In this document: piece by piece, positions 1 to 60,551 of the stretch
Position numbering within the stretch: position 1 is the first letter of the stretch
Layout: each line of letters begins with the position of its first letter
Assembly (NCBI RefSeq): GCF_900323885.1
Contig: NZ_OOHJ01000008.1
Coordinates: forward strand, 1-64,000
From: [Actinomadura] parvosata subsp. kistnae
GTDB taxonomy: Bacteria; Actinomycetota; Actinomycetes; Streptosporangiales; Streptosporangiaceae
DNA length: 64,000 nt
Direction of reading: 5' to 3'
Translations under genes and position numbers: made by a program
Notes under the pieces: generated by a model
What the model was told of the DNA's origin: nothing
Database searches by the model: none
What the model saw: only the letters and a program-made list of their open reading frames with translations

Positions 1-600
1 GTCAGTACCGGCTCGGCGTCGCATCCGGCCCTGCGTCCGAGAGCGGCGCGGGGAGCGGCGGAGGCGCTGACGGCGCGGGGAGCGGTGGGGGCGCGACCGG
101 ACGAAGCCCGTCGCTCAGCGGCTGCACCCGACCCGGCGCAGGCGTGCGACACACGATCCGCGGCAGGCTCGCCCGGCCTGGCATCGCCGGTCGGCATCCG
201 CCCCGAAGCGGCCTCTCCCCATGCGCTGCCGGCGGCCGGCGCCGGATGCCGGTGCACCTCGCCCGGCGCGGCCCAAGCGGGCAAGGACAGGCGCGCAGAC
301 GTCCCGCCCGCCGCGTCCCGAGCAGCCGGAGGCGAGCTCGCAGACGCCTCGCCCAACGCGTCCCAAGGGGGCCAGGTCGCAGACGTCTCCCCCAACGCGT
401 CCCAACCGGGCGGGGGCCAGCTCGCAGGCGTGTCCCGAGCGGGCGACGTCAGGAGGGGAGGCCCGTGGCTCGGTGTGGCGGCGGTGGGTGGGTGGCGGGA
501 GGGGGTGGCGGCGGGGGAAGGCCGCGGGTTGGGTGCCACGAAGGGGACGTTAGTGCACGAGTCGCGCCACAGGCAGGGAAGTGGCCGAGTCGCGCCCCGG
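1..600. other. Repeat-rich stretch with no supported gene
   Basis: Open frames exist on both strands but translate to Arg/Pro/Ala/Gly-rich low-complexity sequence, lack a ribosome binding site and show no domain. The stretch holds several imperfect direct repeats: GGCGCGGGGAGCGG occurs twice near 50-95, a tandem array lies at 294-448 and a 28-bp duplication at 559-614. A distant gene fragment running in from the left edge cannot be excluded. Confidence 0.6.
294..448. repeat. Imperfect tandem repeat, about 39-45 bp unit, 3.5 copies
   Basis: Each unit starts with CGCAGACG or CGCAGGCG and carries a GCGTCCC element (for example CCCAACGCGTCCCAA). Unit length varies through small indels in the G-rich linker. 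It belongs to a wider pattern of intergenic tandem arrays in this window. Confidence 0.65.
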
Positions 601-614
601 TCAGGGAAGTGACC
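559..614. repeat. 28-bp direct duplication spanning the 3' end of the 601-876 gene
   Basis: Two adjacent copies begin GAGTCGCGCC and contain CAGGGAAGTG. The inner copy holds the last codons and the TGA stop (minus strand) of the small gene ending at 601; the outer copy lies in the intergenic DNA, so the gene end itself was duplicated. Confidence 0.75.
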
Positions 615-876
615 GGCCCAGGCGTAGCCGGATGCGATCGCCGCGCTGCACGGACTCGCGTACCGTCCACACGCGTTCGTCCACGACCGTGCCCCTGGCC
701 GTCATGTAGCCGCCCATCCGGAGCACCGGCCGGCCCGCGTCGTCGCGCAGGAGCTGGGCGCGCGACTCGGATTCGTCGCCGAACAGGACGAGGAAGTCGT
801 GGGCGTCGGCGGGGGCGTCGAGGACGAGGCCGGGATACAGGTGGGAGTGGGGAACCTGGATGACATGCTCGATCAC
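601..876 (-). CDS. Small conserved-looking hypothetical protein (91 aa)
   Basis: No family recognised. The 91-residue product has no signal peptide or membrane segment and ends in an Arg/Leu-rich tail (RIRLRLGRSLP). The middle is acidic, with a short Phe-Leu-Val hydrophobic patch (HDFLVLFGDESESRAQLL) followed by a likely beta-rich half (PVLRMGGYMTARGTVVDE). GTG at 876 is chosen because the upstream in-frame extension from 963 runs through the promoter zone of the divergent esterase. The gene is divergent from the CE7 esterase and could share its control region. Its 3' end is tandemly duplicated. It is credible as a gene from codon pattern and position only. Confidence 0.5.
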   Translation of the reverse strand: MIEHVIQVPHSHLYPGLVLDAPADAHDFLVLFGDESESRAQLLRDDAGRPVLRMGGYMTARGTVVDERVWTVRESVQRGDRIRLRLGRSLP

Positions 877-989
877 GGGCGGACGTCTACCCAGATCTCG
901 CGGCTTTAGCGGAAGCCACCCCGGGATAGCGCTTTCCGGCGGTATGGGGTGAAATGTCAGCAACCTTTTCTACAGGCTGGAGTACCACT

Positions 990-1976
990 GTGCCACTGTT
1001 CGACCTGCCGCTCGACCAACTCCGCGAGTACCGCCCCGACCGAGACGAGCCCGCCGACTTCGACGCCTTCTGGTCCGCGACCCTGGCCGAGGCGAGGGAG
1101 TTCGACCTCGCGGCCGAGTACGTCCCGTACGACCTGCCGCTGAGCGGCGTGGACGTGTTCGACGTGTCGTTCGCCGGGTGGGGCGGGCACCGGATCAACG
1201 GCTGGTTCCTGCTGCCGCGCGGCGCGGACGGGCCGCTGCCGTGCGTGGTGCACTACATCGGCTACAGCGGCGGGCGCGGCTTCCCGAAGGACCATCTGCT
1301 CTGGCCGGCGGCCGGGTACGCGGTGTTCGTGATGGAGACGCGCGGCCACGGCGGCGCGAACGTCGGCAGCCCCGGCACCACCGGCGACCCGCACGGCAGC
1401 TCGGGCCCGCAGGCGCCCGGCATGATGACGAGGGGCATCCTCGACCCGGCCGACTACTACTACCGGCGCGTGTTCACCGACGCGGTGCGGGCGGTGGACG
1501 CGGCGGCGGCGCACCCGGCCGTGGACCCCGAGCGGGTGGTGGTGGCGGGCGGCAGCCAGGGCGGCGCGATCGCGCAGGCGACGGCGGCGCTGCGTCCGGG
1601 GGTGAAGGCGGCGCTGATCGACGTGCCGTTCCTGTCGCACTTCCGGCGGGCGGTGGAGATCACGGGCCGCGACCCGTACCAGGAGCTGGTGCGGTTCCTC
1701 GCGACCCGGCGGGACGCCGCCGAGCAGGTGTTCCGTACGCTGTCCTACTTCGACGGGCTGAACTTCGCGGCCCGGGCGACGGTGCCGGCGCTCTACTCGG
1801 TGGCGCTGATGGACGATGTGTGCCCGCCGTCCACGGTGTTCGCCGCCTACAACCATTGGCAGGGCCCGAAGGAGATCACCGTCTGGCCGTGGAACAACCA
1901 CGAGGGCGGCGGCGGCTACCAGTCGGAGGAGCAGGTGCGTTACCTGCACAAGCTCCTCGGCAAGGCCGAGAGCTAG
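990..1976 (+). CDS. CE7-family acetyl esterase (acetylxylan esterase / cephalosporin-C deacetylase type)
   Basis: An alpha/beta-hydrolase that removes acetyl groups from small acetylated sugars, xylo-oligosaccharides or cephalosporin C; probably cytoplasmic, as no signal peptide is seen. With the GTG start at 990 the N-terminus reads [18 protein letters not shown], the usual CE7 opening; GGAG about 7 nt upstream supports this start over ATG 954. The nucleophile elbow GGSQGG puts Ser at residue 189, the acid is Asp275 or Asp276 (MDDVCPPST) and the base is His304 (NNHEGG), nearly the spacing known for Thermotoga CE7 enzymes. The length of 328 aa is typical. The last codons and TAG stop start a 12-bp repeat, and a strong hairpin follows. 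Confidence 0.9.
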
Positions 1977-2003
1977 GGCGAGAGCTGGGGCGGGAGCTGG
2001 GGA
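1968..2003. repeat. 12-bp tandem repeat x3 covering the esterase stop codon
   Basis: Units read GAGAGCTAGGGC, GAGAGCTGGGGC and GGGAGCTGGGGA. The first unit contains the final Glu-Ser codons and the TAG stop of the CE7 esterase; the next two are degenerate copies downstream in which TAG has become TGG. Confidence 0.75.
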
Positions 2004-2007
2004 GCGG

Positions 2008-2047
2008 GCCGCCGCGCCGGAGTGCCCATATCCTCCGGCGCGGCGGC
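2008..2047. terminator. Strong bidirectional hairpin between convergent genes
   Basis: A perfect 15-bp stem (GCCGCCGCGCCGGAG at 2008-2022 pairing with 2033-2047) closes a 10-nt loop, 31 nt after the esterase stop and 5 nt before the convergent HesB-like stop. There is no U tract, as is common for GC-rich actinomycete terminators. The position suits termination from both sides. Confidence 0.8.
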
Positions 2048-2052
2048 GCGCG

Positions 2053-2340
2053 TCAAGCGGTCTGCTCGGTGACCAGGAACGACACGCTCCCCTGGTCATC
2101 GGCACCGGCGTCCAGGGACTTGTCGTCCAGCACAGTCGCAGCCACCGGGTCGAGGTAGACCCGGGCCCCTTCCGCCTCGACCACCGCGTCCGCCGGCTCG
2201 GGGGCGGTGGCCAGGGTCAGGGTGAGCGAGCTGGCACCCTCTCCCTGGGACGAGATGCGAATCCCGCTCTGGGTAGGCTCGGGCGCATTCGCGGTCAGGT
2301 CGCGGATGGCCTGGGCTGCGTTGGCTGTCAGGGTGAGCAC
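2053..2340 (-). CDS. HesB/IscA-like small protein lacking cysteines
   Basis: The N-terminus MLTLTANAAQAIRDLTANA and the beta-rich body (SSLTLTLATAPEPADAVVEA) match the HesB-like fold used by A-type Fe-S carriers. In functional carriers three cysteines bind the cluster; this 95-residue protein has none, so Fe-S transfer by that mechanism is unlikely. Such cysteine-free paralogues are common in actinomycetes and are of unknown role. The start is GTG at 2340 with a strong GAGGAGGAG ribosome binding site. It is divergent from the PCMT-like methyltransferase and convergent with the esterase across the hairpin. Confidence 0.7.
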   Translation of the reverse strand: MLTLTANAAQAIRDLTANAPEPTQSGIRISSQGEGASSLTLTLATAPEPADAVVEAEGARVYLDPVAATVLDDKSLDAGADDQGSVSFLVTEQTA

Positions 2341-2471
2341 TACGGCTCCTCCTCACGGTCGACGTACAGGAGTTGCCTGCCCTTCCCGCTCTTTTCGGTC
2401 TCAACCCTCTCCGGCGATTTCTTTACCGAGAATTCCCGGCCGCTGCCATGCCCGGCGAGGGCCCGGCGACA

Positions 2472-3620
2472 ATGAGGGTCATGGACTTCGCGGCGCAGAG
2501 GCACGCCCTGGTGGCGCGGCTCAGGCAGGCCCAGGATGTCGGCGAGCGGGTGGCGGAGGCGATGCTGGCGGTGCCGCGTCACCTGTTCGTGCCGGGGGTG
2601 GAGCCGGAGGCGGCCTACCGCGACGAGCCCATCGTGACCAAGCTCGACGACGGCGGCCGGCCGATCAGCTCGTCCTCGCAGCCGGCCATCATGGCGACCA
2701 TGCTCGGCCAGCTCGCAGTGGAGCCGGGGCACCGGGTGCTGGAGATCGGCGCGGGCACCGGCTACAACGCGGCGCTCCTGGCCCGCCTCGTGGGGCCCGG
2801 CGGGCGCGTGGTGGCCCTCGACATCGACGCCGACACCGTGGAGCAGGCCCGGGAGCATCTGGCCGCCGCCGGGGTGAGCGGGGTTGAGGTGGTGTGCCGC
2901 GACGGGGCCGAGGGGTATCCCGAGCTGGCGCCGTACGACCGGCTGATCGCCACCGTCGGCGTGTGGGACCTCGCGCCCGCCTGGCTGGCGCAGCTCGCCC
3001 CGGGCGGGCGGCTGGTGGTGCCGCTGGACCTGCGGGGCGTGCAGGTGTCGGCGGCGATGGAGCGCGACGGCGATCGGTGGGTGAGCCGGTCGGTGGCGCC
3101 GTGCGGGTTCATGCGGATGCGCGGGTCGTTCGCGGGGACGGAGTCCGTCACGGTGGTGCGCCGGGATCCGATGGTCATGCTGGTGCTGCCGGAGCCGCGC
3201 GAGACCGGCGACGTGCTCGCGGCGCTGGACACCGTACCGGCGGAGATCACGATCAGGCGGGAGGAGGCCGCGCCGGCGGCGACGGTCACCATGGGGCTGT
3301 CGTTGTGGCTGGCGCTGCACGAGCCGCGCTGGTGCGCGGTGGCCGGCGACCTCGGCCGCGGCCCCGGGATGGCGGCGGGGCTCGTCGAGCCGGGCGGCGT
3401 CGCGCTGCTCGCCGCCGACGGCGCGCTGGTCGCCCGAGGGTACGGGGGCGACGGGGCGCGGCTGGCGGCGGAGCTGGCCGCCCACGTCAGGGCATGGGAC
3501 GATGCGGGCCGCCCCGAGGCGGGCACCCTGCGCGTCGAGGCCTACCCGTCCGGCACGAACGTCCCTGACGGGATCGTCATCGAGAAGCGGCACACCACCC
3601 TGGTGCTGCGCTTCGGCTAG
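2472..3620 (+). CDS. Protein-L-isoaspartate O-methyltransferase-like enzyme with C-terminal extension (FxLD-type)
   Basis: The N-terminal half is a PCMT domain: SAM motif I VLEIGAGTGYNAALL (about residues 89-103), the acidic post-motif VVALDIDADT, and SQPAIMATML before motif I. PCMT enzymes methylate isoaspartyl residues in damaged proteins. The product is 382 aa, well above the roughly 210 aa of plain PCMT. Its C-terminal half resembles the extension of the methyltransferases annotated as FxLD system, some of which act in lanthipeptide clusters; no precursor or lanthionine enzyme is visible here. Start ATG 2472 is preferred, with GAGGG about 11 nt upstream; ATG 2481 is possible. It overlaps the convergent split-barrel gene by 4 bp. 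Confidence 0.8.
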   Translation: MRVMDFAAQRHALVARLRQAQDVGERVAEAMLAVPRHLFVPGVEPEAAYRDEPIVTKLDDGGRPISSSSQPAIMATMLGQLAVEPGHRVLEIGAGTGYNAALLARLVGPGGRVVALDIDADTVEQAREHLAAAGVSGVEVVCRDGAEGYPELAPYDRLIATVGVWDLAPAWLAQLAPGGRLVVPLDLRGVQVSAAMERDGDRWVSRSVAPCGFMRMRGSFAGTESVTVVRRDPMVMLVLPEPRETGDVLAALDTVPAEITIRREEAAPAATVTMGLSLWLALHEPRWCAVAGDLGRGPGMAAGLVEPGGVALLAADGALVARGYGGDGARLAAELAAHVRAWDDAGRPEAGTLRVEAYPSGTNVPDGIVIEKRHTTLVLRFG

Positions 3621-4075
3621 ACCGTCCAGGCGCCGTCGCGGATGAGGTCGCGCCCGGCCAGCTCGTTCGCCTCGCGCCACGCCTGCAGCCGCACGGGCGT
3701 GACGTGGAAGTAGTGGTACGCGCCGGCCTCCTTGCGCGGGTCGAAGCCCGCCTTCTCCGCGAACGCGTCGCCGAGCTCGGCGGGGATCTCGGTGGCGGGG
3801 GTGGCCCGCGCCGTGCCCTCGATGAGCACCACGTCGCGCACCAGCCCGATCGCGATCCGCGCCCGGCCGCCGGCCAGCAGGTTGCGCGCGGTGGGGCTGG
3901 CCGTGGCCGTGGACAGGATCAGCGCCGTGCCGTCCCACAGGAACGACAGCGGCACCATGTACGGCGTCCCGTCCGCCCCCGCGGTGGCCACCCAGCAGTC
4001 CACGTCGTGCTCCAGGCGGTGCAGGGTGTCCCGCTTGCGCTGCTCGGCGGTGCGCGGGGTGGGCAGGGCGGACAT
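3617..4075 (-). CDS. Pyridoxamine 5'-phosphate oxidase-fold (FMN/F420 split-barrel) protein
   Basis: A 152-residue protein with the split-barrel pattern: DVDCWVATAGADGTPYMVPLSFLWDG, then LILSTATASPTARNLLAGG and RARIAIGLVRDVVLIEGTA. These proteins bind FMN or F420 as dimers and reduce or oxidise small molecules; the substrate cannot be told. It ends HVTPVRLQAW, as F420-type members often do. Start ATG 4075 follows GAGCGAGGCACC. The 3' end overlaps the convergent methyltransferase by 4 bp, and it lies downstream of nothing else on its strand. Confidence 0.85.
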   Translation of the reverse strand: MSALPTPRTAEQRKRDTLHRLEHDVDCWVATAGADGTPYMVPLSFLWDGTALILSTATASPTARNLLAGGRARIAIGLVRDVVLIEGTARATPATEIPAELGDAFAEKAGFDPRKEAGAYHYFHVTPVRLQAWREANELAGRDLIRDGAWTV

Positions 4076-4133
4076 GGTGCCTCGCTCTCGTGGGTCACAA
4101 CGGTTCTGTCGCTTTCGCCATTATTGAGGATGA

Positions 4134-8135: not shown

Positions 8136-8249
8136 GAAGCGTTCTCCCCCGGACCTGTCTATTTCATCCCATCAGAAACATTGGCCACGAGACGACCACA
8201 TTTCCTCACGGGGAGTCAAACAGGACTCGACATGGGGCCCCAATTTTTG

Positions 8250-8756: not shown

Positions 8757-8785
8757 GGGCATCGCTCCTAATTCATCCTGCGATG

Positions 8786-8815
8786 AGTTTAGGTGGCCCA
8801 CCCCGAGAACGTCAA
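8786..8815 (-). promoter_or_regulatory. SigA-type promoter for the ICMT-family gene
   Basis: On the minus strand TTGACG (8815-8810) and TAAACT (8791-8786) are separated by 18 bp, close to the housekeeping consensus. Transcription would start near 8779, leaving a leader of roughly 23 nt that contains AGGAG. Confidence 0.65.
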
Positions 8816-8830
8816 CGCCTGTTGGCACTT

Positions 8831-9799: not shown

Positions 9800-9858
9800 G
9801 AAAGTGACGCTAGTGCGCTAAACGGATGGGGTCGTCCATTTACGCTAATGTGAGAAAC
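9800..9858. promoter_or_regulatory. Divergent leaderless promoters with candidate TetR operator
   Basis: Minus strand: TAGCGT, 7 nt, ATG 9799. Plus strand: TAATGT, 7 nt, ATG 9859. Between them an imperfect 22-bp palindrome (9820-9841, AAACGGATGG...CCATTT) and two direct copies of ACGCTARTGYG (9807-9817 and 9842-9852) are candidate operator elements. Both promoters would be blocked by a bound repressor. Confidence 0.5.
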
Positions 9859-10783: not shown

Positions 10784-10784
10784 G

Positions 10785-11426: not shown

Positions 11427-11972
11427 GTGCACATCTACCTGGAGACCGAGCGGCTGATCCTGCGCCGCTTCGCCGAGTCCGACGCGGACGAGCTGTTCCG
11501 CCTGCACAACGACCCCGAGGTGATGCGGTACCTCAACGGCGGCAAGCCCACACCCCGCCAAGTGATCCTCGACCAGACCCTGCCCCGGTTCATCGAGAGC
11601 GGCTTCTTCGCCGCGCTGGAGCGGCGGTCGGGCGACTTCCTCGGCTGGTTCCACCTGCGGGCGCCCGAGGGCGGGCCGGAGGATGAGCCCGAGCTGGGCT
11701 ACCGGCTGCACAAGGCGGCCTGGGGGCAGGGGTACGCGACCGAGGGCTCGCTCGCGCTGATCGGCAAGGCGTTCGCCGAGCTGGGCGCCCGGCGGGTGTT
11801 CGCGCAGACGATGGCGGTGAATCTCGGGTCGCGGCGGGTGATGGAGAAGTGCGGGCTGCGGCACGTGCGGACCTTCCACATGGACTGGCCGGATCCCATC
11901 GAGGGCACCGAGCACGGCGAGGTCGAGTACGAGCTGCTGCGCGCCGACTGGGAGGCGGCCCGCAAGAGCTGA
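11427..11972 (+). CDS. GNAT-family N-acetyltransferase (RimJ/RimL-like)
   Basis: A 181-residue acetyltransferase. The opening YLETERLILRRFAESDADEL is the RimJ/RimL hallmark, and the acetyl-CoA loop appears as KAAWGQGYATEGSLALI, followed by NLGSRRVMEKCGLRHV, the usual motif B region. It transfers acetyl from acetyl-CoA to an amine (ribosomal protein N-terminus or small molecule); the acceptor is unknown. GTG 11427 fits the domain start exactly and is 7 nt after a -10 hexamer, so the mRNA is probably leaderless. Its TGA stop lies in the first copy of a 19-bp tandem repeat. Confidence 0.9.
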   Translation: MHIYLETERLILRRFAESDADELFRLHNDPEVMRYLNGGKPTPRQVILDQTLPRFIESGFFAALERRSGDFLGWFHLRAPEGGPEDEPELGYRLHKAAWGQGYATEGSLALIGKAFAELGARRVFAQTMAVNLGSRRVMEKCGLRHVRTFHMDWPDPIEGTEHGEVEYELLRADWEAARKS

Positions 11973-12044
11973 GCCGGCCCGCATGTGCTGAGCCGGCCCG
12001 CATGTGCTGAGCCGGCCCGCATGTGCTGAGCCGGCCCGCATGTG
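11969..12044. repeat. 19-bp perfect tandem repeat x4 beginning at the GNAT stop codon
   Basis: Four identical copies of CTGAGCCGGCCCGCATGTG. The first contains the TGA stop of the GNAT gene (11970-11972). The perfect identity suggests recent expansion. Confidence 0.9.
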
Positions 12045-12116
12045 CTGCACCGGCCCCAGCCGCCGGCCCCAGCCGCCCGAGCTAGCCTCGGGCCGTGATG
12101 CCGGTCGGGCTGGTGT

Positions 12117-13654: not shown

Positions 13655-13740
13655 ACCTCGGCCCCTTCGGGGCTTCACAGGGCTCTACGGGCTTTACCGG
13701 GCTCTCCGGGGCTTTACCCGGCTCTTCGGGGCGTCACGGG
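13655..13740. repeat. Degenerate ~20-bp tandem repeat at the end of the aldehyde dehydrogenase gene
   Basis: About four imperfect units alternate GGGCTCT(A/C)CGGG and GGGCTTTACC; the array reaches into the stop codon of the aldehyde dehydrogenase (13734-13736, minus strand). The GC-rich inverted segment CCGGGCCCGG lies just before it near 13590. It probably separates the convergent transcripts. Confidence 0.6.
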
Positions 13741-32141: not shown

Positions 32142-33551
32142 TCAGAGGTGGACGTACTCGTAGTCGAAGGGCCGGCCGTTGATCCCGTTGCGGGGCGGCG
32201 CCACCCAGGCGGCGATCTTCCCCGGCTCGTGGACGGGCCGCATCAGCGCCCGGACGTGCGCCTTGTCCGCCGGCGTGGGCAGCCAGCGGTCGCGGGCCGC
32301 CGCCCACTCCGCCTCGGCGAGCACCCGGCCGTCCGGGGAGACGTGGTGGCCGGCGAACGCGCCGACCTTGCGGTTGAAGCCGACGTGCGGCAGGTACAGG
32401 CTCGGGTCGAGGCCGTGGCCGGCGAGGATGCGGTTCCAGCGGTTGAGGCCGGTGGCGCAGTCGGCGGCGTACTCGCCGCGCAGGTCGGCGTTGAGCGCCG
32501 TCAGCGCGGGCAGCCGGACGTCCACCACCCGGCCGCCCTCGACGCGCGGCACGACGGCGACCGCCTCCGTGAGCAGGTGGTCGTCCTGGCGCCGCTCCTC
32601 CTGCCAGCGCCCCTTGAGCCCGGCGGTGTAGTAGTTGGCGACATTCGTGGAGGTCTCGCCGCCGAACAGGTCGAGGCTCACGCTGTAGTGGAAGTTGATG
32701 TACTTCTGGACGACGTCCAGCGGGATGCCCCCGTAACGTGCGATGTCGTCCGTGTCGTGCTCGCGCATGAGCTGCGCCGTCCGCTCCACCACCCGGTCCA
32801 CGCCCGTGGTGCCCACGAACATGTGGTGCGCCTCCTCGCGCAGCATGAACTCGCAGGTCCGGCTGAGCGGGTCGAACGCCGACTCCTTCAACGTCCCGAG
32901 CTGGTACTTGCCGTCGCGGTCGGTGAAGTACGTGAACATGAAGAACGACAGCCAGTCCGGCGTCTCCTCGTTGAACGCGCCCAGGATGCGCGGCGCGTCC
33001 TCGCTGCCCGAGTTGCGCAGCAGCAGCGCCTCCGCCTCGTCCCGGCCGGCCCGGCCGAAGTAGGCGTGCAGCAGGTAGACCATGGCCCACAGGTGGCGGC
33101 CCTCCTCCACGTTGACCTGGAAGAGGTTGCGCAGGTCGTACAAGGAGGGGGCGGTCAGCCCGAGACGGCGCTGCTGCTCCACGCTGGCCGGCTCCGTGTC
33201 GCCCTGGACCACGATGAGGCGCTGCAGCTCGGACCGGTACTCGCCGGGCACCTGCTGCCACACCGGCCGCCCCTTGTTCTGCCCGAACGCGATGCGGCGG
33301 CCCGGGTCGCGCTCGGCCAGGAAGATGCCCCAGCGGTAGTCCGGGAGCGCCACATGGTCGAAGTGCGCCCAGCCCTCGCGGCCTACGGCTATGGCGGTGC
33401 GCAGGTAGACGTCCTGGGTGGGCAGTGCCGGGCCCATCTCCGACCACCATTGCAGGAAACGCGGCTGCCACGACTCCAGCGCCCGGCGCAGCCTGCGGTC
33501 CTCGGCGAGATCGACGTTGTTGGGGATGCGCTCGGAGTAGTCGATCGTCAT
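32142..33551 (-). CDS. boxB: Benzoyl-CoA 2,3-epoxidase, oxygenase subunit BoxB
   Basis: A 469-residue diiron oxygenase that forms 2,3-epoxybenzoyl-CoA from benzoyl-CoA and O2. The iron ligands can be seen: Glu120 (GDTE), Glu150 and His153 (EEGRHLW), Asp211 (FTDRDG), Glu240 and His243 (REEAHHMF), the spacing I recall for BoxB of Azoarcus. It needs electrons from a reductase (BoxA), which is not in this window. The start ATG 33551 lies in a copy of the 30-bp triplication that joins it to boxC. Confidence 0.95.
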   Translation of the reverse strand: MTIDYSERIPNNVDLAEDRRLRRALESWQPRFLQWWSEMGPALPTQDVYLRTAIAVGREGWAHFDHVALPDYRWGIFLAERDPGRRIAFGQNKGRPVWQQVPGEYRSELQRLIVVQGDTEPASVEQQRRLGLTAPSLYDLRNLFQVNVEEGRHLWAMVYLLHAYFGRAGRDEAEALLLRNSGSEDAPRILGAFNEETPDWLSFFMFTYFTDRDGKYQLGTLKESAFDPLSRTCEFMLREEAHHMFVGTTGVDRVVERTAQLMREHDTDDIARYGGIPLDVVQKYINFHYSVSLDLFGGETSTNVANYYTAGLKGRWQEERRQDDHLLTEAVAVVPRVEGGRVVDVRLPALTALNADLRGEYAADCATGLNRWNRILAGHGLDPSLYLPHVGFNRKVGAFAGHHVSPDGRVLAEAEWAAARDRWLPTPADKAHVRALMRPVHEPGKIAAWVAPPRNGINGRPFDYEYVHL

Positions 33552-33636
33552 GAGTCAGGCTCGCTTCCTGTCGCACCTCATGCCTCGGGTCGGCGTCCTG
33601 CCGCTGCTCATGGCTCAGGCTCGCTTCCTGTCGTAG
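33547..33636. repeat. 30-bp tandem triplication of the boxC stop / boxB start junction
   Basis: Three consecutive 30-bp units (33547-33576, 33577-33606, 33607-33636). Outer copies share TCAGGCTCGCTTCCTGTCG; the middle one is diverged. On the minus strand the outer copies hold a TGA a few nt before an ATG, so the stop-spacer-start junction itself was multiplied. The boxB start is in one outer copy, the boxC stop in the other. Confidence 0.85.
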
Positions 33637-35202: not shown

Positions 35203-35545
35203 CCCTCAAGTTCAACAACCACCGCATACCGCGTCAAGCTTCTGTAGAACGTGGGAGGACAGCGGAAACGGACCGGCACCGCACCCCTCCCCTGACCTCA
35301 GCCCCCCGGCCCGACCTGACTCCGTACCCCAACCCCGCCCTTGCCCCCAGCCCGAACCTGACCCCGGACCTCAAACCCCGCCCCTGCCCCCAATCCTTAC
35401 CTGGCCCCGCACCCAGACCTCGATCTCGACCTGGACCTCGATCCGGACCTGGACCTGGACCTTGACCTTGACCCGGACGCAGACCTTGACCCGGACCCGC
35501 ACCTCGACCTGGACCTCGACCTGGACCCGGACCTCGACATCAGGG
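35203..35545. repeat. Non-coding C/T-rich stretch ending in a 6-bp-period tract
   Basis: Between boxC and the small gene at 35634. From about 35400 to 35545 the plus strand is a 6-bp-period tract built of GACCTG, GACCTC, GACCTT and GACCCG units; before it (35280-35400) related CCC(C)TGACC words are looser. Open frames here give simple repeats (Asp-Leu or Thr-Trp) and are not believed. No promoter is obvious besides the space just before boxC. Confidence 0.75.
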
Positions 35546-35638
35546 GGCGCTGGACTTCAGGGAGGCGTTGGACATCAGGGAGGCGCCGGACTTCGGGGAG
35601 GCGCCGGACTTCGGGGAGGCGCTGGACTTCACTTCAGG
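35546..35638. repeat. 18-bp tandem repeat x5 at the end of the MazG-like gene
   Basis: Units of type GGACTTCGGGGAGGCGC, with ACTTCAGG or ACATCAGG variants, run up to and into the stop codon of the minus-strand gene ending at 35634. Two neighbouring units are identical, showing recent copying. Confidence 0.75.
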
Positions 35639-37036: not shown

Positions 37037-38662
37037 GTGGTGGTTCTCCAGCCTTCCGACCCGACCGTCGACACCCGGCGCGTCAGCGCGGCCGTTGCAG
37101 CGGCCGGGCTGTCGTCCTTCGCCCTCCTGTACGCCCCGCAGCCGGTGCTGCCCCAACTCGCGACCGCGTACGGACTCGACCCGGGCACCGCCTCACTCGC
37201 GATCGGCGTAGCGACCGCCAGCCTGGCCGTCGCAGTCCTGCCCTTGGCCTGGCTGGCCGGCGTGGTGGGCCGACGCCGGATGATCCTCTGGTCGGTAGTG
37301 GTCTCGGCAGTGCTCGGTCTGCTGCTGCCCCTGGCACCGTCCTTCCCTGTGTTCCTGGCGATGCGAGGGGTGCAGGGCGTGGCCATCGCCGGCTTCGCGG
37401 GGGTGGCGGCGGCGTACCTGGCCGACCAACTCGGCACATCCCGCCTGGCCGCGGCGGTGGGAGCGATGATCGCCGGCAACTCGGTCGGCGGCATGCTCGG
37501 CCGCCTCGGCGCAGGCTTCACCGCCGAGCCGCTGGGATGGCACGGCGCGCTGGTAGCGGTGGCGGCAGTGGCCCTGGCATGCGCCCTCTTCACGACCGCA
37601 ACCCTCCCCCGCCCAGCAACCCCTAGCACCGCTAGCGCACAGAGCACCGCTAGCGTGGGGAGCGTCGCTAGCACAAGGAGCACCGCTCGCGGAGGAAGCA
37701 CGGCTCGCGCAGGAAGCATGACTCACGCAGGAAGCACGACTCACGCAGGAAGCACGACTCACGCAGAGAGCACGACTCACGCAGAGAGCACGACTCACGC
37801 AGAGAGCACGACTCACGCAGGGAGCACCGCTGGCACAGAGAGCACGACTTACACAGGGAGCACCGCTCGCACAGAGAGCACCGCTAGCACGAGGAGCGTC
37901 GCTAGCGCCGAGAGCACCGCTAGCGCACGGAGCGTCACTAGCGCACAGAGCACCGCTAGCACGAGCAGCGTCATCAGCACAGGGAACACCGCTCACGCAG
38001 GGAGCGTCACTAGCACACAGAGCACCGCTAGCAAGCTGGGGATGGTGGCGCCGTTCGCCGTCGGGGCGCTGGCCATGGGGGCGTTCGTGGCCTTGTACAA
38101 CGCGGCCGGGTTCCGGCTTGCCGCGCCGCCCATCTCGCTGAGCCCGGCCGCCGCCTCGCTGGTGTTCCTCTCGTACGCCATGGGGACCGCGTCCTCGGCC
38201 GCCGCCGGTCGGCTGGCCGCGCGCCTGGGGCGGACGGCGGCGCTCGTCACGGCGCTGGTCGTGACGGTGGTGGGGGCCGTGCTGACCGTGCACCCGTCGC
38301 TGCCTGTGATCGCGCTCGGGTTCGGGGTGCTGACCGCCGGGTTCTTCGCCGCGCACGCCATCGCCAACGCCTGGGTGACCGCCGACGCACCCCCGGCCGC
38401 CAGGGGACGGGCCGCGGGGACGTACACGCTCTGCTACTACCTGGGCAGCGGCGCGGGCGGCACTGCGGGCGCGCTCGTGTACGGCCGTGCGGGCTGGACG
38501 TGGCTGGTCGTCATGACGTCGGCCTGGCTGCTGCTGGCCGCCCTGGCAGTGCTCCTGCACCGAGGGAGGCGTTCGATGGCCGAAGGCGATCCGCACCGCC
38601 GACGGCACCCGCTGTCCGAAGGCGATCCCTCAGCACCCACTGCGCCCGCAGGCCGAGGGTGA
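37037..38662 (+). CDS. MFS transporter (YnfM-like) with a long repeat-expanded central loop
   Basis: A 541-residue transporter, normally about 400. The first six helices (SSFALLYAPQPVLPQLATAY, VLPLAWLAGVVGRRRMILWS, AVGAMIAGNSVGGMLGRLGA) match YnfM-type drug/sugar exporters. Residues about 196-332 are then a Ser/Thr-rich hexapeptide array, after which the second half begins (MVAPFAVGALAMGAFVALYN) and ends at HRGRRS. The frame is open throughout. The start is taken as GTG 37037, leaderless. The regulator is the divergent LysR. The last about 30 residues and the stop belong to a 37-bp tandem array running downstream. Confidence 0.88.
   Translation: MVVLQPSDPTVDTRRVSAAVAAAGLSSFALLYAPQPVLPQLATAYGLDPGTASLAIGVATASLAVAVLPLAWLAGVVGRRRMILWSVVVSAVLGLLLPLAPSFPVFLAMRGVQGVAIAGFAGVAAAYLADQLGTSRLAAAVGAMIAGNSVGGMLGRLGAGFTAEPLGWHGALVAVAAVALACALFTTATLPRPATPSTASAQSTASVGSVASTRSTARGGSTARAGSMTHAGSTTHAGSTTHAESTTHAESTTHAESTTHAGSTAGTESTTYTGSTARTESTASTRSVASAESTASARSVTSAQSTASTSSVISTGNTAHAGSVTSTQSTASKLGMVAPFAVGALAMGAFVALYNAAGFRLAAPPISLSPAAASLVFLSYAMGTASSAAAGRLAARLGRTAALVTALVVTVVGAVLTVHPSLPVIALGFGVLTAGFFAAHAIANAWVTADAPPAARGRAAGTYTLCYYLGSGAGGTAGALVYGRAGWTWLVVMTSAWLLLAALAVLLHRGRRSMAEGDPHRRRHPLSEGDPSAPTAPAGRG
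37621..38033 (+). repeat. 18-bp coding minisatellite, 23 units, in the MFS central loop
   Basis: Hexapeptides of consensus S-T-(A/T)-(S/R/H)-x-x (STASAQ, STTHAG, STTHAE, STARTE, SVTSAQ) repeat 23 times. Units of GCACAGAGCACCGCTAGC type and a block of near-identical STTHAE units show local expansion. It lies exactly at the loop between the two six-helix halves, expected to be cytoplasmic. Confidence 0.88.
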
Positions 38663-39090
38663 TCCCGCACCGCCTACGGCACCCACTGCCCGAAGGCGAT
38701 CCCGCACCGCCCACCGCGCCCGCGGCCCAAGTGTGACGCCACACCACCCACCGCGCCCGCAGGCCGAGGGCGATCCCACGCCACCCACGGCGCCAGCAGG
38801 CCAAGCGTGATCCCACGCCACCCATGGCGCCCCCTGCCTCAAGGCGATCCCGCACTACCCACCGCACCCGCAGGCCGAGAGTGATCCCGCACCCCCGACG
38901 GCAACCCACCTGCCCCGCAGGCGATCACGCACCGCCCACCGCGCCCGCAGCCCAAGCGTGACGCCACACCGCCCATCGCGCCCGCAGGCCGGGAGTGATC
39001 CTGCACCCCCGACGGCGCCCTCTGCCCGAAGGCGATCAGGCACCGACCACCGCGCCCGCTGGCCAAGCGTGATCCCGCACCGCGTCGGGC
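38577..39090. repeat. 37-bp degenerate tandem array, about 14 copies, starting inside the MFS 3' end
   Basis: Units read like GATCCCGCACCGCCCACCGC then GCCCGCAGGCCGAGGGT or ..CAAGCGT. Some units alternate between two subtypes (ending AAGCGT or GAGGGC). The MFS stop codon (38660-38662) lies in the early units, and the rest is intergenic up to near the DUF5937-like gene. No spacer sequence exists between units, so it is not CRISPR. Confidence 0.85.
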
Positions 39091-42187: not shown

Positions 42188-42991
42188 ATGCCGGGGCTGG
42201 ATCTCGGGCGGCTCGTGGAGGGGCTGCGGGAGCAGACGGAGGGGTTCGCGCAGGCGGTGGCCGGGGGCGATCCTGAGGCGGTCGTGCCCACGTGTCCCGA
42301 GTGGCGGCTGCGGACGCTGGTCGCGCACATCGGGCTGGCCGATCGGTGGGCGGCGGAGCTGGTGCGCACGGGGCGACCGGTGCCGGCGCCGGATCCGGCC
42401 GCCGCGAATCCGGGTGTTCCGGGCGTTCCTGGCGAGTGGGGCGCGTGGCTGCGGGCGGGCGCCGATGAGCTGGTCGGGGCGGTGCGCGAGGCGGGCGAGG
42501 GAAGTCAGGCGTGGTCGTTCTTCGGGACGGTGCCGGCCGCGTTCTGGGTGCGCAGGATGCTGTCCGAGACGGCGATCCATCACTGCGACGCGGCGCTGAC
42601 GACCGGCGCCGCGTTCCGGATCGCGGGCGACCTGGCGGCCGAGGTGATCACCGAGGGCATGGAGCTGATGGCCGATCCGCGCGCCGAGACGGCGGTGCCG
42701 AAGCTGGCCCTGCTGAGGGGGGCGGGTGAGCGGCTGGCGTTCCGGCCGTACGGGATGGAGGGGTGGGTGATCACGCGGCTGCCCGAGGGGCTGCGGTGGG
42801 AACGCGGGAACGGGCCGGCGGACGTGGTGGTGTCGGGGACGCTGACCGAGGTCATGCTGGTGCTCGCACGGCGCAGACCGCCCGGCGAGGTGACGGGCGA
42901 GGTGACGGGCGAGGTGACGGGCGAGGTGACGGTGGAGGTGACGGGCGATCGGGCGCTGCTGGAGCACTGGCTGGAGCACACCCTCATGTGA
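42188..42991 (+). CDS. Maleylpyruvate isomerase / mycothiol-dependent (MDMPI, DinB-fold) protein
   Basis: A 267-residue DinB-fold protein. The N-terminal VPTCPEWRLRTLVAHIGLAD and the second metal motif SETAIHHCDAAL place His residues for a metal site. The family includes mycothiol-dependent maleylpyruvate isomerase and other mycothiol S-transferases. ATG 42188 has AAGGGG 8 nt upstream. Near the C-terminus (42889-42952) a 12-bp unit GGCGAGGTGACG is repeated in frame (GEVT x4-5). Its stop codon is in a 19-bp tandem repeat. Control by the divergent MerR is likely. Confidence 0.87.
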   Translation: MPGLDLGRLVEGLREQTEGFAQAVAGGDPEAVVPTCPEWRLRTLVAHIGLADRWAAELVRTGRPVPAPDPAAANPGVPGVPGEWGAWLRAGADELVGAVREAGEGSQAWSFFGTVPAAFWVRRMLSETAIHHCDAALTTGAAFRIAGDLAAEVITEGMELMADPRAETAVPKLALLRGAGERLAFRPYGMEGWVITRLPEGLRWERGNGPADVVVSGTLTEVMLVLARRRPPGEVTGEVTGEVTGEVTVEVTGDRALLEHWLEHTLM

Positions 42992-43037
42992 GCAGCCCAT
43001 CCTCATGTGAGCAGCCCATCCTCATGTGAGCAGCGCC
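42983..43037. repeat. 19-bp tandem repeat x3 spanning the MDMPI-type stop codon
   Basis: CTCATGTGAGCAGCCCATC at 42983-43001 and 43002-43020 (identical) and a third partial copy from 43021. The first contains the final Leu-Met codons and TGA stop (42989-42991). Confidence 0.9.
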
Positions 43038-46597: not shown

Positions 46598-47820
46598 GGC
46601 GGCGCCTTCGGCAGCGTCGCGGTGACCCTGGTGGGGCCGCCGGGCGGGCTGTCGACGGTGAACGTGCCGTCGAGTGCCAGCACCCGCCGCGCCAGCCCCG
46701 ACAGGCCGCCGCCGGACGGGTCGGCGCCGCCCCCGCCGTCGTCTGAGATCGCCACGCTCACCGTCCGCTCGTCCTCGGTCAGGACCACCAGGATGTCATG
46801 GGCGCCGGCGTGCTTGACCGCGTTGGTGATGGCCTCGCGGGCCACGAAGTACAGGGCGGTCTCGATCTCGGAGGCGGGGCGGGCGGTCAGGCCGTCGTGC
46901 ACGGTGACGGGCAGGCCCGCCCGCTCGGCCACGCCGGCGAGGGCCGCGCGCAGGCCGAGCTCGTCGAGCGCGGTCGGGTAGATGCGCCAGGCGACGCTGC
47001 GCAGCTCGTCGAGGAGCTGGCGCGACTCCGTGTACGCCTGCGCCACCAGCTCGGCGACCCCGTCCTGACGCGCTGCGGGCGCGGTCCCGATCGCGTGGCG
47101 GGCGCGGCCGAGCAGCATGGCCAGGGCGACGCCGCGCTGCTGCACGCCGTCGTGCAGGTCGCGCTCGATCCTGCGCCGCTCGTCGTCCACCGCCCTGACG
47201 ATGCCGGAACGGGTCTCGGTCAGCTCGGCGATGCGCCGGCGCATCAGCTCCTCGCCGGTGGGCCCGAGGAAGTGCGCGGCCAGGCGGCGATCGAGCGCGG
47301 CGGCGGCCGCGACCATGAGGATGAGCACGCCGAGCAGGGCCAGCCCGGCCGTGATGCCGAGCGCGCCGCCGCTGGTGACGAGCTTCACTCCCGGCAGCTC
47401 CAGGGGGACCGGCTCGGACTCGCCCCACACCAGGTCCCACGTGCCGCCGCCCAGCAGCAGCACGATGAGGAACAGGGTGCTGGCCCAGAGGTAGCCGCCG
47501 AGGACCCCCAGGGCGGCGCGGGCGGCGAGGAAGGCGTACCCGCCGTCGGCCCGCGCCGGCTCGTGCCCGAGCCAGCGGGACAGGCGGGCCCGCTCCAGCG
47601 CCGTCAGCCGGGCGCGCCCGCGCGCGGCGGCGGGCCGCAGAGCGGGGATCAGCGCGGCGGGCGCCGCCACGGCCAGGAAGATCAGCTCGGCCGCGCCGAG
47701 AGCCGTTCCGAGAACGACTCCGGCCAGGAGGCGGGCGATGCGGGTGCCTGACACGGGCGTGAAGTCTAGGCGCCCGCCACGACGTGCGGTCACCAGCCGC
47801 CCCGCAGGACGCGCGGTCAT
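46588..47820 (-). CDS. Sensor histidine kinase (NarX/DesK-like)
   Basis: A 410-residue kinase. The N-terminal half has about four membrane helices (LLAGVVLGTALGAAELIFLA, LGVLGGYLWASTLFLIVLLL, ALGITAGLALLGVLILMVAA). HisKA_3 motif ERRRIERDLHDGVQQRGVAL places the phospho-His at residue 223; the ATPase domain shows REAITNAVKHAGA. The ATG at 47820 overlaps the permease stop (TGATG). Confidence 0.93.
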   Translation of the reverse strand: MTARPAGRLVTARRGGRLDFTPVSGTRIARLLAGVVLGTALGAAELIFLAVAAPAALIPALRPAAARGRARLTALERARLSRWLGHEPARADGGYAFLAARAALGVLGGYLWASTLFLIVLLLGGGTWDLVWGESEPVPLELPGVKLVTSGGALGITAGLALLGVLILMVAAAAALDRRLAAHFLGPTGEELMRRRIAELTETRSGIVRAVDDERRRIERDLHDGVQQRGVALAMLLGRARHAIGTAPAARQDGVAELVAQAYTESRQLLDELRSVAWRIYPTALDELGLRAALAGVAERAGLPVTVHDGLTARPASEIETALYFVAREAITNAVKHAGAHDILVVLTEDERTVSVAISDDGGGGADPSGGGLSGLARRVLALDGTFTVDSPPGGPTRVTATLPKAPPCG

Positions 47821-48638
47821 CAGGCGTCGCGGCGGCGCAGGACTGCCAGGCCCGCCGCCAGGCCCGCCGCCGCCCAGATCAGCAGCCACAGCAGCCCCTC
47901 CCCCGCCGGGTACGGCATGGGCCCGCCGGTGAGGTTGTCCGTGCTGCCCATGAACGCCAGCCCGGCGAACGTCGGCATCCGCAGCGAGGCGTCCAGCAGC
48001 GCCGGCACCCCGGTCATGAGGATCACCAGCGGCAGCCCCAACAGCAGCATGAACATCACCGTCAGCGTGCCCGCCGCGCTGCGCATCGCGGCCCCGACGC
48101 CCAGCGTCGTCACGGACACCAGCGCGTAGAACACCCCGGTGCCCAGCAGATCGGCCACGGCGTCGCCGGCGGGCAGCACCACGAGCCCGCCGAACACGTC
48201 GGCCGACAGCACCGCGTACACGACCCCCGTCGCCACCGCCCCCGACAGCACGCCCGCCGCGAGCATCACCGGCCCCACCACCAGCGCCTTGGCCGCCAGC
48301 ACCACCCCGCGCACGGGCGTGGCCTGCAAGGTGACGCGGATGGCGCCGGAGGCGTACTCGGAGGTGATCGCCAGCATGGCCAGGGCGACCAGCGCGAACT
48401 GCACGAACGACGTGGCCGAGACCACGGCCTCGCTGGCGACGACGCGCACCCCGGCCGCCCGCGCCGCGCCGGCGTCGCCGTCGTACTCGCGCAGGGCGTC
48501 GGTCGCGGACGCGCCGCCGAGGGTGACGGCGATCAGCACGGTGAGCGCGAACGCGCAGGCCAGGCACCACCACGTGGCCCTGACCGACCACAGCTTCGCC
48601 CACTCGGCCCCGACGGCCTGCCGCAGGGTCGCCGTCAC
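47820..48638 (-). CDS. ABC-2-type exporter permease
   Basis: A 272-residue membrane protein with about six helices, including FVQFALVALAMLAITSEYAS and LVVGPVMLAAGVLSGAVATG. The EYASGAIRVTLQATPVRG segment is typical of ABC-2 permeases. GTG 48638 overlaps the ATPase stop (GTGA). It works with the ATPase below in drug, peptide or lipid export. Confidence 0.92.
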   Translation of the reverse strand: MTATLRQAVGAEWAKLWSVRATWWCLACAFALTVLIAVTLGGASATDALREYDGDAGAARAAGVRVVASEAVVSATSFVQFALVALAMLAITSEYASGAIRVTLQATPVRGVVLAAKALVVGPVMLAAGVLSGAVATGVVYAVLSADVFGGLVVLPAGDAVADLLGTGVFYALVSVTTLGVGAAMRSAAGTLTVMFMLLLGLPLVILMTGVPALLDASLRMPTFAGLAFMGSTDNLTGGPMPYPAGEGLLWLLIWAAAGLAAGLAVLRRRDA

Positions 48639-58262: not shown

Positions 58263-59093
58263 GTGACTTACGCGAACCTGTACGAAAGGCCCGGCCCGCG
58301 CGGGGTGCGCCGCAACCGGGTGCTGACCGCCCTGGTCGCGCTGGCACTGCTGGCCGTGGCGTACGTCGTCTACGTCCGCTTCGACGAGAAGGACCAGTGG
58401 GCGGCGGAGAAGTGGACGCCGCTGCTGCGGGCCGACGTGTGGGCCACGTTCATCCTGCCCGGCCTGGCCGGCACGCTGGCGGCGGCCGTGGCCGGGGTGG
58501 TGCTGGCGGCGCTGTTCGGGCTCGTGTTCGCCGTCGCCCGGCTGTCGGAGCACCGGTGGATCCGGGTGCCGGCGGCCATGGTGGTGGAGTTCTTCCGGTC
58601 CGTGCCGCTGCTGCTGCTGATCTTCTTCGCCTTCTTCGGGTCGTTCGTGCTCATCGGCGTGAACATCTCGGCGTTCGCCGCCGTCGTGTTCGGGCTGACC
58701 CTCTACAACGGGTCGGTGATCGCGGAGATCATCCGGGCCGGGGTGCTGAGCCTGCCCAAGGGGCAGCGGGAGGCGGCGTACGCGGTGGGCATGCGCAAGG
58801 GGCAGGTCATGCGGCTGGTCCTGCTGCCGCAGGCGGTCAAGGCCATGCTGCCGGCGCTGATCAGCCAGTTCGTGGTGCTGCTCAAGGACTCGGCGCTGGG
58901 CCTGATCGTGGGCTACGACGAGCTGGTGGACAGGGGGCTGAATGGGATCGCGGCCAACTTCTCCAACGTCATCCCGGCGGCCATCCTCATCGCGGCCATC
59001 TTCATCGTGATCAACATGGCGCTGGACCGGCTGGCGCACCGCCTCGGCGCCTCCTCCACGCGGCGCTCCGCCTCCTCGGCACGGCGCTCCTGA
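58263..59093 (+). CDS. Amino-acid ABC transporter permease (GluD-like)
   Basis: A 276-residue permease with an N-terminal helix (LTALVALALLAVAYVVYVRF) and the family loop GQREAAYAVGMRKGQVMRLV, LPQAVKAMLPALISQFVVLL. GTG 58263 follows GGAGGTGGGCGC. The C-terminus (SSTRRSASSARRS) is a short repeat that continues beyond the stop codon as a 20-bp DNA repeat. Confidence 0.95.
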   Translation: MTYANLYERPGPRGVRRNRVLTALVALALLAVAYVVYVRFDEKDQWAAEKWTPLLRADVWATFILPGLAGTLAAAVAGVVLAALFGLVFAVARLSEHRWIRVPAAMVVEFFRSVPLLLLIFFAFFGSFVLIGVNISAFAAVVFGLTLYNGSVIAEIIRAGVLSLPKGQREAAYAVGMRKGQVMRLVLLPQAVKAMLPALISQFVVLLKDSALGLIVGYDELVDRGLNGIAANFSNVIPAAILIAAIFIVINMALDRLAHRLGASSTRRSASSARRS

Positions 59094-59141
59094 TGACGGC
59101 GCGGCGCTCCCGATGACGGCGGGACGCTCCCGATGACGGCG
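59082..59141. repeat. 20-bp tandem repeat x3 spanning the GluD-like stop codon
   Basis: Units CGGCGCTCCTGATGACGGCG, CGGCGCTCCCGATGACGGCG and GGACGCTCCCGATGACGGCG. The first carries the TGA stop (59091-59093); in later units TGA has become CGA. Confidence 0.9.
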
Positions 59142-59169
59142 GGGCCCTTTTGTCCCGCATGATGACCTC

Positions 59170-60492
59170 ATGCCGATTTCCCCTGGTTTCTTCGCCGGCC
59201 GTGACCTCACCGGCCTCGCCCGTGACCTGCGCGACGGGCGCGTCACCGCCACCGCGCTGACCGAGCGGGCGCTCGCCGCCGCCGAGGCGCTCGGCCCGGA
59301 GCTGAACGCCTTCGTCACCGTGGACGCCGCCGGGGCGCTGAAGGCGGCGCGCCAGGCCGACGAGGAGCTGGCGGCGGGCACCGACCGGGGCCCGCTGCAC
59401 GGCCTGCCGGTCGCGGTCAAGGACCTGATCATGGTGGCCGGGCTGCCCGCGACAATGGGGTCGCGGCACTTCGCCCGGTACGTCCCCGACACCGACGCCG
59501 CCTGCGTGACGCGGCTGCGCGCGGCCGGGGCGGTCATCGTGGGCAAGACGACGACGCACGAGTTCGCGTACGGGCCGACCGGCGACCGCTCCGCCAACGG
59601 CCCCTCGCGCAACCCCGTGGACCCGGCGCGCATGTCGGGCGGCTCCAGCGGCGGCAGCGCGGCGGCCGTGGCGGCGGGCATCGTCCCGCTCGCGATCGGC
59701 ACCGACACGGGCGGGTCCGTGCGTATCCCGGCGGCTCTGTGCGGGATCGCCGGGTTCAAGCCCGCGTACGGGGCGATCCCGGCGGACGGGGTGTTCCCCC
59801 TGTCGGCCAGCTACGACCACGTGGGCGTGCTGGCGGGCGGCGCGGAGGACTGCCTGATCGCCTACCGCTGCCTGGGCGGGGAGGTGTCCGGCGACGGGAG
59901 CCCGGCGGTCGGCTGGGTCGATCCGGCCGGGCTGTTCGACGGTGACGCCCGGGTGACGGCGGCCGTGCGAGCTCTCCTCGGCGACGCGGCGGAGGTGCGG
60001 CTGCCGGAGGGGTTCGCCGGGGAGGTGTGGGAGACGTACACGGTCGTGCAGAGCTGCGAGACCGCCGCCGTGCACGCCGGGCGGCTGGAGCGGGCGCCCG
60101 AGCTGTTCGACGCCGAGGTGCTGGAGCGGCTGCGCGCCGCCTCCGAGGTGCCGGGCTGGCGGTACGTGCGGGCGCTGGAGAGCCGGCGGCGGCTGGCCGG
60201 GATGGTGGAGACGCTGTTCGGGCGGCATGACGTGCTCGCGATGCCGACCGTGCCGATCACCGCGCCGCTCATCGACCAGCGCGAGGTCGAGCTGGACGGG
60301 CGGAGCGTCGCGGTGCGTCCGGCGCTGCTCGCCCTGACCAGCCCGTGGAACGTGCTCGGCCTGCCCGCGCTGACCGTGCCCGCCGGGACGGTGGCCGGGC
60401 TGCCGGTCGGGCTGCAGCTCGTGTGCCGGCCGGGCGACGAGGCCCGCCTCTTCACGGCGGCGGCCCGCCTGGCACCCGCCGCACTCGGCTGA
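59170..60492 (+). CDS. Amidase (amidase-signature family)
   Basis: A 440-residue amidase with the Ser-cisSer-Lys triad: Lys84 (LPVAVKDLI), cis-Ser159/160 (MSGGSSGGSAAAV) and nucleophile Ser183 (TDTGGSVRIPAAL). It hydrolyses an amide to an acid and ammonia; the substrate is unknown. It follows the amino-acid importer by 77 bp in the same direction and may serve it. It is predicted cytoplasmic. The stop lies in a 25-bp tandem repeat. Confidence 0.9.
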   Translation: MPISPGFFAGRDLTGLARDLRDGRVTATALTERALAAAEALGPELNAFVTVDAAGALKAARQADEELAAGTDRGPLHGLPVAVKDLIMVAGLPATMGSRHFARYVPDTDAACVTRLRAAGAVIVGKTTTHEFAYGPTGDRSANGPSRNPVDPARMSGGSSGGSAAAVAAGIVPLAIGTDTGGSVRIPAALCGIAGFKPAYGAIPADGVFPLSASYDHVGVLAGGAEDCLIAYRCLGGEVSGDGSPAVGWVDPAGLFDGDARVTAAVRALLGDAAEVRLPEGFAGEVWETYTVVQSCETAAVHAGRLERAPELFDAEVLERLRAASEVPGWRYVRALESRRRLAGMVETLFGRHDVLAMPTVPITAPLIDQREVELDGRSVAVRPALLALTSPWNVLGLPALTVPAGTVAGLPVGLQLVCRPGDEARLFTAAARLAPAALG

Positions 60493-60551
60493 CGGCCCTC
60501 CCGCCGCACTCCGCTGACGGCGCTCCCGCCGCGCTCCGGTGGCGATCCCCC
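60477..60551. repeat. 25-bp tandem repeat x3 spanning the amidase stop codon
   Basis: Units begin CGCCGCACTC(G/C)GCTGACGG and follow each other at 60477, 60502 and 60527. The TGA stop (60490-60492) is in the first; in the third copy TGA is lost. Confidence 0.85.

Follow-up and report, generated by a model that had tools for sequence, protein, structure and literature searches.

Tandem arrays in short intergenic gaps are known from mycobacteria, where the gap between rnc and fpg1 is 358 bp long in Mycobacterium tuberculosis H37Rv and 1-54 bp in mycobacteria outside the M. tuberculosis complex (PMC2734929). In a study of lake bacterioplankton, deletions in non-coding DNA were tied to tandem repeats between genes, and polymerase slippage was given as their cause (PMC9426551). 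Here we analyze short tandem arrays lying over or close to the stop codons of genes in [Actinomadura] parvosata subsp. kistnae, starting from a window of 64,000 nucleotides (bases 1-64000 of contig C14) in a genome of 13,558,401 bases (13.56 Mb) and 36 contigs. We conclude, with a probability of roughly 0.7, that these arrays are ordinary short tandem duplications tolerated by selection, which gather at stop codons where they are least harmful, rather than products of a new gene-end mechanism.

The focal sample comprises the window, two pieces of contig C22 and contig C1, amounting to 912,450 bases with 767 called genes (6.7% of the genome). Genes were called by our own script with a phase-specific Markov model, not taken from a curated annotation, and arrays were called by Tandem Repeats Finder (TRF), with a score of at least 50 and a period of 10-200 as cut-offs in the genome sample. 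The window aligns to the chromosome of Nonomuraea gerenzanensis, NZ_LT559118.1, with 88.9% identity across 92% of bases 1-20000; judged from its sequence, the focal genome is a Nonomuraea. The orthology comparison rests on this one close relative, of which 900 kb were compared, yielding 500 reciprocal-best gene pairs with a median protein identity of 92.2%. Congener G033, assigned to the genus of the window, is identical to NZ_LT559118.1 across 3,747 and 441 bases and is therefore N. gerenzanensis, which makes Nonomuraea the genus of the focal genome; the two are counted as one in the total of 12 congener species, and their sampled stretches do not overlap. In the plasmid collection, this 11.85-Mb chromosome carries the record label 'plasmid I' with 10 annotated features in all.

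Array frequency and local constraint at gene ends

Arrays over stop codons are frequent in the focal sample, whose 334 arrays divide into 195 within genes, 87 intergenic, 45 over a stop, 6 over a start and 1 over both. Gene ends inside an array number 52 of 767 (about 7 per 100), against 47 of 1,939 across the 12 congener species. The former consist of 8/62 in the window, 16/325 and 28/351 in the C22 pieces and 0/29 in C1; the latter of 14/566 in seven genomes, 3/311 in G010, 10/339 in four more and 20/723 in N. gerenzanensis. Elsewhere, we found such ends at 0/71 in a genome of the same class and at 1/103 across 28 loci, mostly actinobacterial. When units are placed evenly on all sequence outside gene interiors (the uniform null), the sample should contain 12.7 stop-spanning arrays; it contains 45, a 3.5-fold excess that persists without the window (37 observed, 11.1 expected), and start-spanning arrays amount to 6 for 14.0 expected. 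The same null gives 3 observed for 2.9 expected in G010 and 11 for 4.0 in seven other congeners. In 864 kb of codon-shuffled coding sequences combined with dinucleotide-shuffled intergenic DNA (three replicates), the mean count was 0 for stop-spanning arrays and 6 for intergenic ones. A preliminary description of the window had proposed that tandem arrays are enriched at gene ends, and this over-representation extends beyond the window under the uniform non-coding null and stands out from the shuffled control, with 45 stop-spanning arrays against an average of 0.

The decisive comparison is with local constraint. Of 393 gene ends, 77 were excluded because of arrays and 175 because of gap length; the array-free conserved gaps at the other 141, of which 121 are co-directional, supplied the constraint weights. 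The substitution rate drops from 0.158 at 0-20 bp past the stop to about 0.07 at distances above 100 bp (bootstrap ratio 2.4, interval 1.7-3.2), and alignment gaps decrease from 41 per kb to 14 over the same distances (bootstrap ratio 2.9, interval 1.7-5.6). The distance of arrays from the stop was then compared at those gene ends whose neighbour is conserved, comprising 59 arrays at 310 ends in the focal genome and 27 at 308 in N. gerenzanensis, or 86 when pooled. The pooled profile fits the substitution weights (chi-square 1.9, p 0.93) and the gap weights (chi-square 1.0, p 0.98), whereas a uniform rate is rejected (chi-square 16.5, p 0.01). Within 20 bp of the stop, the observed/expected ratio is 1.46 for the uniform rate, 1.07 for substitution weights and 1.00 for gap weights; in this zone, the arrays do not exceed the local-neutrality prediction. 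Since the array profile matches that of substitutions and gaps, no gene-end process is needed, and relaxed constraint accounts for the enrichment. The preliminary description had invoked a process or constraint acting at gene ends, with slippage at termination zones or selection for insulating spacers as possible causes; neither cause is needed.

Several observations weigh against this conclusion. The 3.5-fold stop excess makes it dependent on the constraint-weighted null; when each species is taken by itself, the data remain compatible with a uniform rate (p 0.07 and 0.39), so that the power to tell the nulls apart is modest. The 141 ends behind the weights belong to the two species under comparison and are mostly co-directional (121), whereas the arrays prefer convergent ends, and weighting by gaps of at least 8 bp fits poorly (p 0.01), over-predicting the stop zone. 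The gap rates could also have a common cause with the arrays, to which the substitution weights are less exposed. High-identity stop arrays occur at 21.2 per Mb in the C22 pieces and 5.4 per Mb in the congeners, about 4-fold, compared with 31.2 and 26.7 per Mb for intergenic ones, which by itself would suggest a gene-end-specific increase in the focal species. Furthermore, the last 8 residues are at most 50% identical in 12 of 38 array genes, compared with 54 of 462 others, so the silence of the duplications appears imperfect: some tails may have changed together with their array, or fast-evolving genes may be the preferred sites of arrays. Further adverse points, which speak for a duplication hotspot, are given with the orientation of the genes below.

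The excess of high-identity stop arrays over the 12 congeners, together with intergenic arrays that are not raised and more diverged protein ends in array genes, would be consistent with a duplication activity specific to gene ends in the focal lineage, tied to termination or convergent transcription and continually rewriting gene tails and C-termini. We regard such an activity as quite improbable. Gene-end-specific acceleration is hinted at by the per-Mb counts but not by matched regions: in conserved pairs of the focal genome and N. gerenzanensis, stop arrays number 27 vs 14 and intergenic arrays 22 vs 14, and the contrast is gone (p 0.81). A lineage-wide rise in the rate of tandem duplication, seen wherever duplications are tolerated, is a tentative possibility; it would add to the tolerance of ordinary duplications and not replace it. 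It is consistent with the 59 vs 27 arrays at matched gene ends, a difference of about two-fold that is otherwise unexplained, and with the higher frequency of array ends than in the congeners (52/767 vs 47/1,939), although arrays away from the stop differ less, both in the 22 vs 14 of the conserved pairs and in the high-identity intergenic densities (31.2 vs 26.7 per Mb).

Two further candidates were considered. A detection bias from slower decay of coding copies is not favoured for the focal genome, as the stop:intergenic ratio in the focal sample is 17:25 for high-identity arrays against 21:54; in the congeners, the corresponding ratios are 13:64 and 31:123, and the ratio is not higher at high identity. 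For an RNA-templated origin, no tracking of array ends by reverse transcriptase content (RVT_1) was seen in the few genomes compared: the focal genome has one match, G048 none with 4/88 array ends, and G010 four with 3/311.

An artefact of assembly or gene calling is scarcely credible. It is true that the genome is in 36 contigs with genes called by our own script, and that, in the unvalidated set, multiples of 3 are over-represented among the periods (24 of 46 stop arrays and 45 of 88 intergenic arrays). This excess does not reach significance at genes with orthologs, where periods are distributed 15:10:10 over remainders 0:1:2 in the focal genome and 4:4:8 in N. gerenzanensis, and it is therefore probably in part miscalled coding sequence. 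Similar arrays are, however, present in G021 and G048, which consist of one and two contigs, and in the complete N. gerenzanensis record, and 38 array gene ends belong to genes with reciprocal-best orthologs. As a separate observation, C22a_139/C22a_140 (C22 1-400000) have in-frame-looking N-terminal tandem expansions at a place where, in N. gerenzanensis, the start overlaps the preceding stop. These expansions seem to resemble tail arrays through a shifted start call, and this seems to be one source of miscalling.

Orientation, sequence signatures and turnover

Array density in the focal genome is 3.7 per kb at -20 to +20 of the stop, about 2 at 20-70 and 1 past 150. It falls from 1.8 to 0.4-1.0 per kb away from the stop in N. 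gerenzanensis, and more weakly, from 1.7 to 0.5-0.9 per kb, in the twelve remaining samples (G010, G033 and ten others). Convergent gaps of the focal genome have 4.7-6.3 arrays per kb vs 1.8-3.0 in co-directional ones, and 18 of 133 gene ends at convergent junctions carry arrays, compared with 9 of 237 at co-directional junctions (p 0.001). No clear strand effect was found in the larger pieces; in the window, arrays contain the stop of 6/29 genes on the plus and 2/33 on the minus strand. The position of the unit relative to the stop is uniform (Kolmogorov-Smirnov p 0.58, 44 of 52 usable), and the fixed unit boundaries at the stop that would mark a site-directed gene-end duplication are not seen.

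The preference for convergent ends raises the possibility of a duplication hotspot at transcription-termination zones, in which RNA polymerase stalling or convergent transcription would stall replication forks and lead to template switching past the stop. Such a hotspot would fit the density maximum at -20 to +20 and the higher density of convergent than co-directional gaps. It would also fit the end of one MDMPI-domain gene, which bears arrays of unrelated units in several congeners, and the co-directional ends with arrays in both species, which number 3 of 246 while the product of the two rates predicts 0.7. We nevertheless consider it unlikely. The array gradient equals that of ordinary substitutions and gaps, and convergent gaps free of arrays are already richer in alignment gaps than co-directional ones (72 vs 36 per kb, with only 20 convergent ends). 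Array genes are less conserved than the others (88.8 vs 92.4% identity), which lends no support to high transcription as a cause, and convergent ends with arrays in both species number 3, compared with 2.9 from the rate product.

Slippage driven by hairpins was rejected: in convergent pairs, neither the fold energy, the stem length nor the direct-repeat length of the array-free N. gerenzanensis counterpart predicts the arrays. With regard to a repeat-type intrinsic terminator, too, the hairpin energy of that counterpart shows no difference in convergent pairs. Co-directional pairs with a focal-only array (9 loci) have longer direct repeats (p 0.003), with borderline values for fold energy and GC content (p 0.04 each). 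Recurrence at particular loci was also tried as a signature; it is striking at the MDMPI gene, reaches 2/18 at an amidase gene, and is chance-like for the convergent ends of the focal genome and N. gerenzanensis. Taken together, the earlier proposal of slippage at termination zones keeps its plausible part, an origin of the slippage type, but fold energy is a poor predictor and no special rate in these zones emerges.

Ordinary tandem duplications are expected to be gained and lost fast between species, and this is what the orthologous gaps exhibit. Stop arrays are present in at least one species at 39 of 395 conserved pairs and in both at 2 of these 39, and arrays elsewhere in the gap are present in both at 6 of 23. 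An array no more than 20 bp from the stop is found in the focal genome only at 46 of 392 conserved gene ends, in N. gerenzanensis only at 16 and in both at 6, where one convergent array may count for two gene ends and gain is not distinguished from loss by an outgroup.

Convergent gaps with a focal-only array have a median length of 94 bp, compared with 29 bp in N. gerenzanensis, as might be expected if spacer or insulator DNA, or back-up stop codons, were selected at gene ends. The array-free N. gerenzanensis counterparts of the affected convergent gaps are, however, not significantly shorter than the gaps at unaffected loci (median 18.5 vs 24, p 0.73), so the insulating spacers offered in the preliminary description gain no backing. 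In addition, in-frame copies are not favoured at genes with orthologs, and arrays are seldom common to both species; such selection is thus highly improbable. A clean example of a compact junction is C22b_201/C22b_202 (C22 2000001-2400000), where a 21 bp x 5.7 array lies between two convergent stops; in N. gerenzanensis, 1 bp separates these stops.

Arrays of the window

All ten arrays named in the preliminary description were reported by TRF. Eight of them contain a called stop, defined in the window as having at least 6 nt of array to each side of it; the other two, at 13668 and 35536, sit just beyond one. The claim that the stop usually lies within the first unit agrees with 45 of the 52 stop-spanned gene ends of the focal sample. 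Copies match at 69-100% within the arrays of the window (TRF). Units differ between loci by eye, as had been stated; no unit shared between window loci was seen in this way, and the array at 11.95 kb matched itself alone when used as a genome-wide query, the other arrays not being searched genome-wide. A dispersed repeat family of the MIRU or REP/BIME type was thus discarded as a candidate, the common unit across loci that it implies not being found.

Comparison with N. gerenzanensis shows no array there at the loci 1963, 13668, 47771, 59077 and 60475, and at or close to 11952, 38578 and 42982 it shows arrays whose units differ from those of the window. The first array of the window, 558..615 (28 bp x 2.1), lies over the stop (601-603) of the minus-strand gene 601-876, whose N. 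gerenzanensis ortholog has identical last 8 residues. The next, 1963..2002 (12 bp x 3.3), covers the stop of an acetyl xylan esterase-like gene on the plus strand ending at 1976 (called start 954 or 990), and it is at the orthologous gene end that N. gerenzanensis has none. At 11952..12056, an array of 19 bp x 5.5 lies over the stop of the GNAT acetyltransferase gene 11427-11972 (plus strand). Its unit was not seen by eye in the ortholog tails, on which no repeat search was run, and near the counterpart N. gerenzanensis has an unrelated 12 bp x 5.5 array, farther downstream. The array at 13668..13732 (20 bp x 3.3) begins 1 nt beyond the stop of the minus-strand aldehyde dehydrogenase gene 13734-15155, leaving the stop outside.

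The array at 33548..33633 (30 bp x 2.9) lies over the stop of 33615-34067 and extends to the start of 32142-33551, both on the minus strand; the gene end at 33615 is not validated, as the stretch 32153-35643 is missing from N. gerenzanensis. Two bases downstream of a weakly called minus-strand stop at 35634 lies the array 35536..35631 (18 bp x 5.4), and the gene body beside it aligns to N. gerenzanensis at 87%. The array 38578..39083 (37 bp x 13.6) is situated between 38042-38662 (plus) and 39173-40135 (minus). The called stop of 38042-38662 is inside this array but not in its first unit. Its ortholog end is not validated, as the N. gerenzanensis alignment ends at 38571; the matching gap in N. 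gerenzanensis holds a 36 bp x 2.7 array. These three arrays fall inside stretches of about 1.6-3.5 kb (32153-35643, 38571-41215 and 24815-26383) that are absent or unaligned in N. gerenzanensis.

The MDMPI-domain gene mentioned above, 42179-42991 on the plus strand, has a perfect 19 bp x 2.8 array over its stop at 42982..43034, in convergent orientation. Arrays of other units touch the stop of this gene in G048 (16 bp x 3.0), G004 (26 bp x 2.8) and N. gerenzanensis (G033; 8 bp x 8.1). An array additional to the ten, 47771..47823 (27 bp x 2.0), covers the stop of the minus-strand gene 47820-48638 and includes 4 nt of the gene. The N. gerenzanensis gap is 54 bp shorter here and G010 has other sequence; the short gap could possibly reflect a loss in N. 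gerenzanensis. The array at 59077..59145 (20 bp x 3.5) lies over the stop of the plus-strand ABC-transport permease gene 58263-59093, and the N. gerenzanensis permease ends 7 residues earlier. Finally, 60475..60538 (25 bp x 2.6) lies over the stop of the amidase gene 59170-60492 (plus strand), again convergent; among the amidase tails of 18 relatives, only those of G032 and G021 have arrays at the stop, with different units.

Two other repeats were seen in the window. A long array with 15/105-bp periodicity at 15873-16371 overlaps a weakly called open reading frame (15948-16415, plus strand) and may encode a repetitive protein. An 18-bp array of about 22 copies occupies 37625-38032, and N. gerenzanensis has a few short similar units at the matching place.

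Origin, meaning and relation to known systems

We suppose that an array is born when strand slippage or template switching in replication or repair duplicates a segment, and that it would then grow by further slippage. Within a gene, such a duplication would often disrupt the reading frame, and one that includes a start or promoter would disturb expression. Across a stop, the frame would still be closed by the first copy, so that the duplication may be mostly neutral, persisting for a while before it is lost. Convergent ends would tolerate the most, having a start or promoter on neither side. Arrays would accumulate just past the stop without any special process, because the first stop is kept after duplication and no other DNA measured in these genomes is under less constraint.

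If ordinary duplications are indeed tolerated in this manner, the bases immediately past the stop would be the freest DNA in this genus, where tandem duplications appear first. Gene ends with arrays could then provide fast markers for typing and a natural record of how often duplications arise. The result also calls for caution, in that an enrichment at stop codons measured with a uniform intergenic null (3.5-fold here) can disappear once the null is weighted by constraint. Should arrays seed new C-termini, as the divergence of tails hints, they would be a small source of protein novelty.

MIRUs belong to one dispersed repeat family, whereas the focal loci each have their own unit. A title-level literature search returned, among the matches listed, no title stating a stop-codon rule for tandem arrays. 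The passages available from the lake bacterioplankton study contain no gene-end analysis of the kind carried out here (PMC9426551). In the excerpts on Borg extrachromosomal elements, repeats are perfect, A-biased and about half within open reading frames, whereas the focal arrays match at 69-100% and lie in GC-rich DNA; these excerpts hold no measure of stop-codon enrichment and no comparison to local constraint, and, as here, slippage is considered as one origin (PMC9879509). The variable-number tandem repeat (VNTR)/MIRU loci resemble the focal arrays in that a tandem array fills a gap that is a few bases long in most of the other mycobacteria listed; according to the available part of the report, the array between rnc and fpg1 starts 40 bp past the stop, and its length accompanies the expression of the next gene (PMC2734929).

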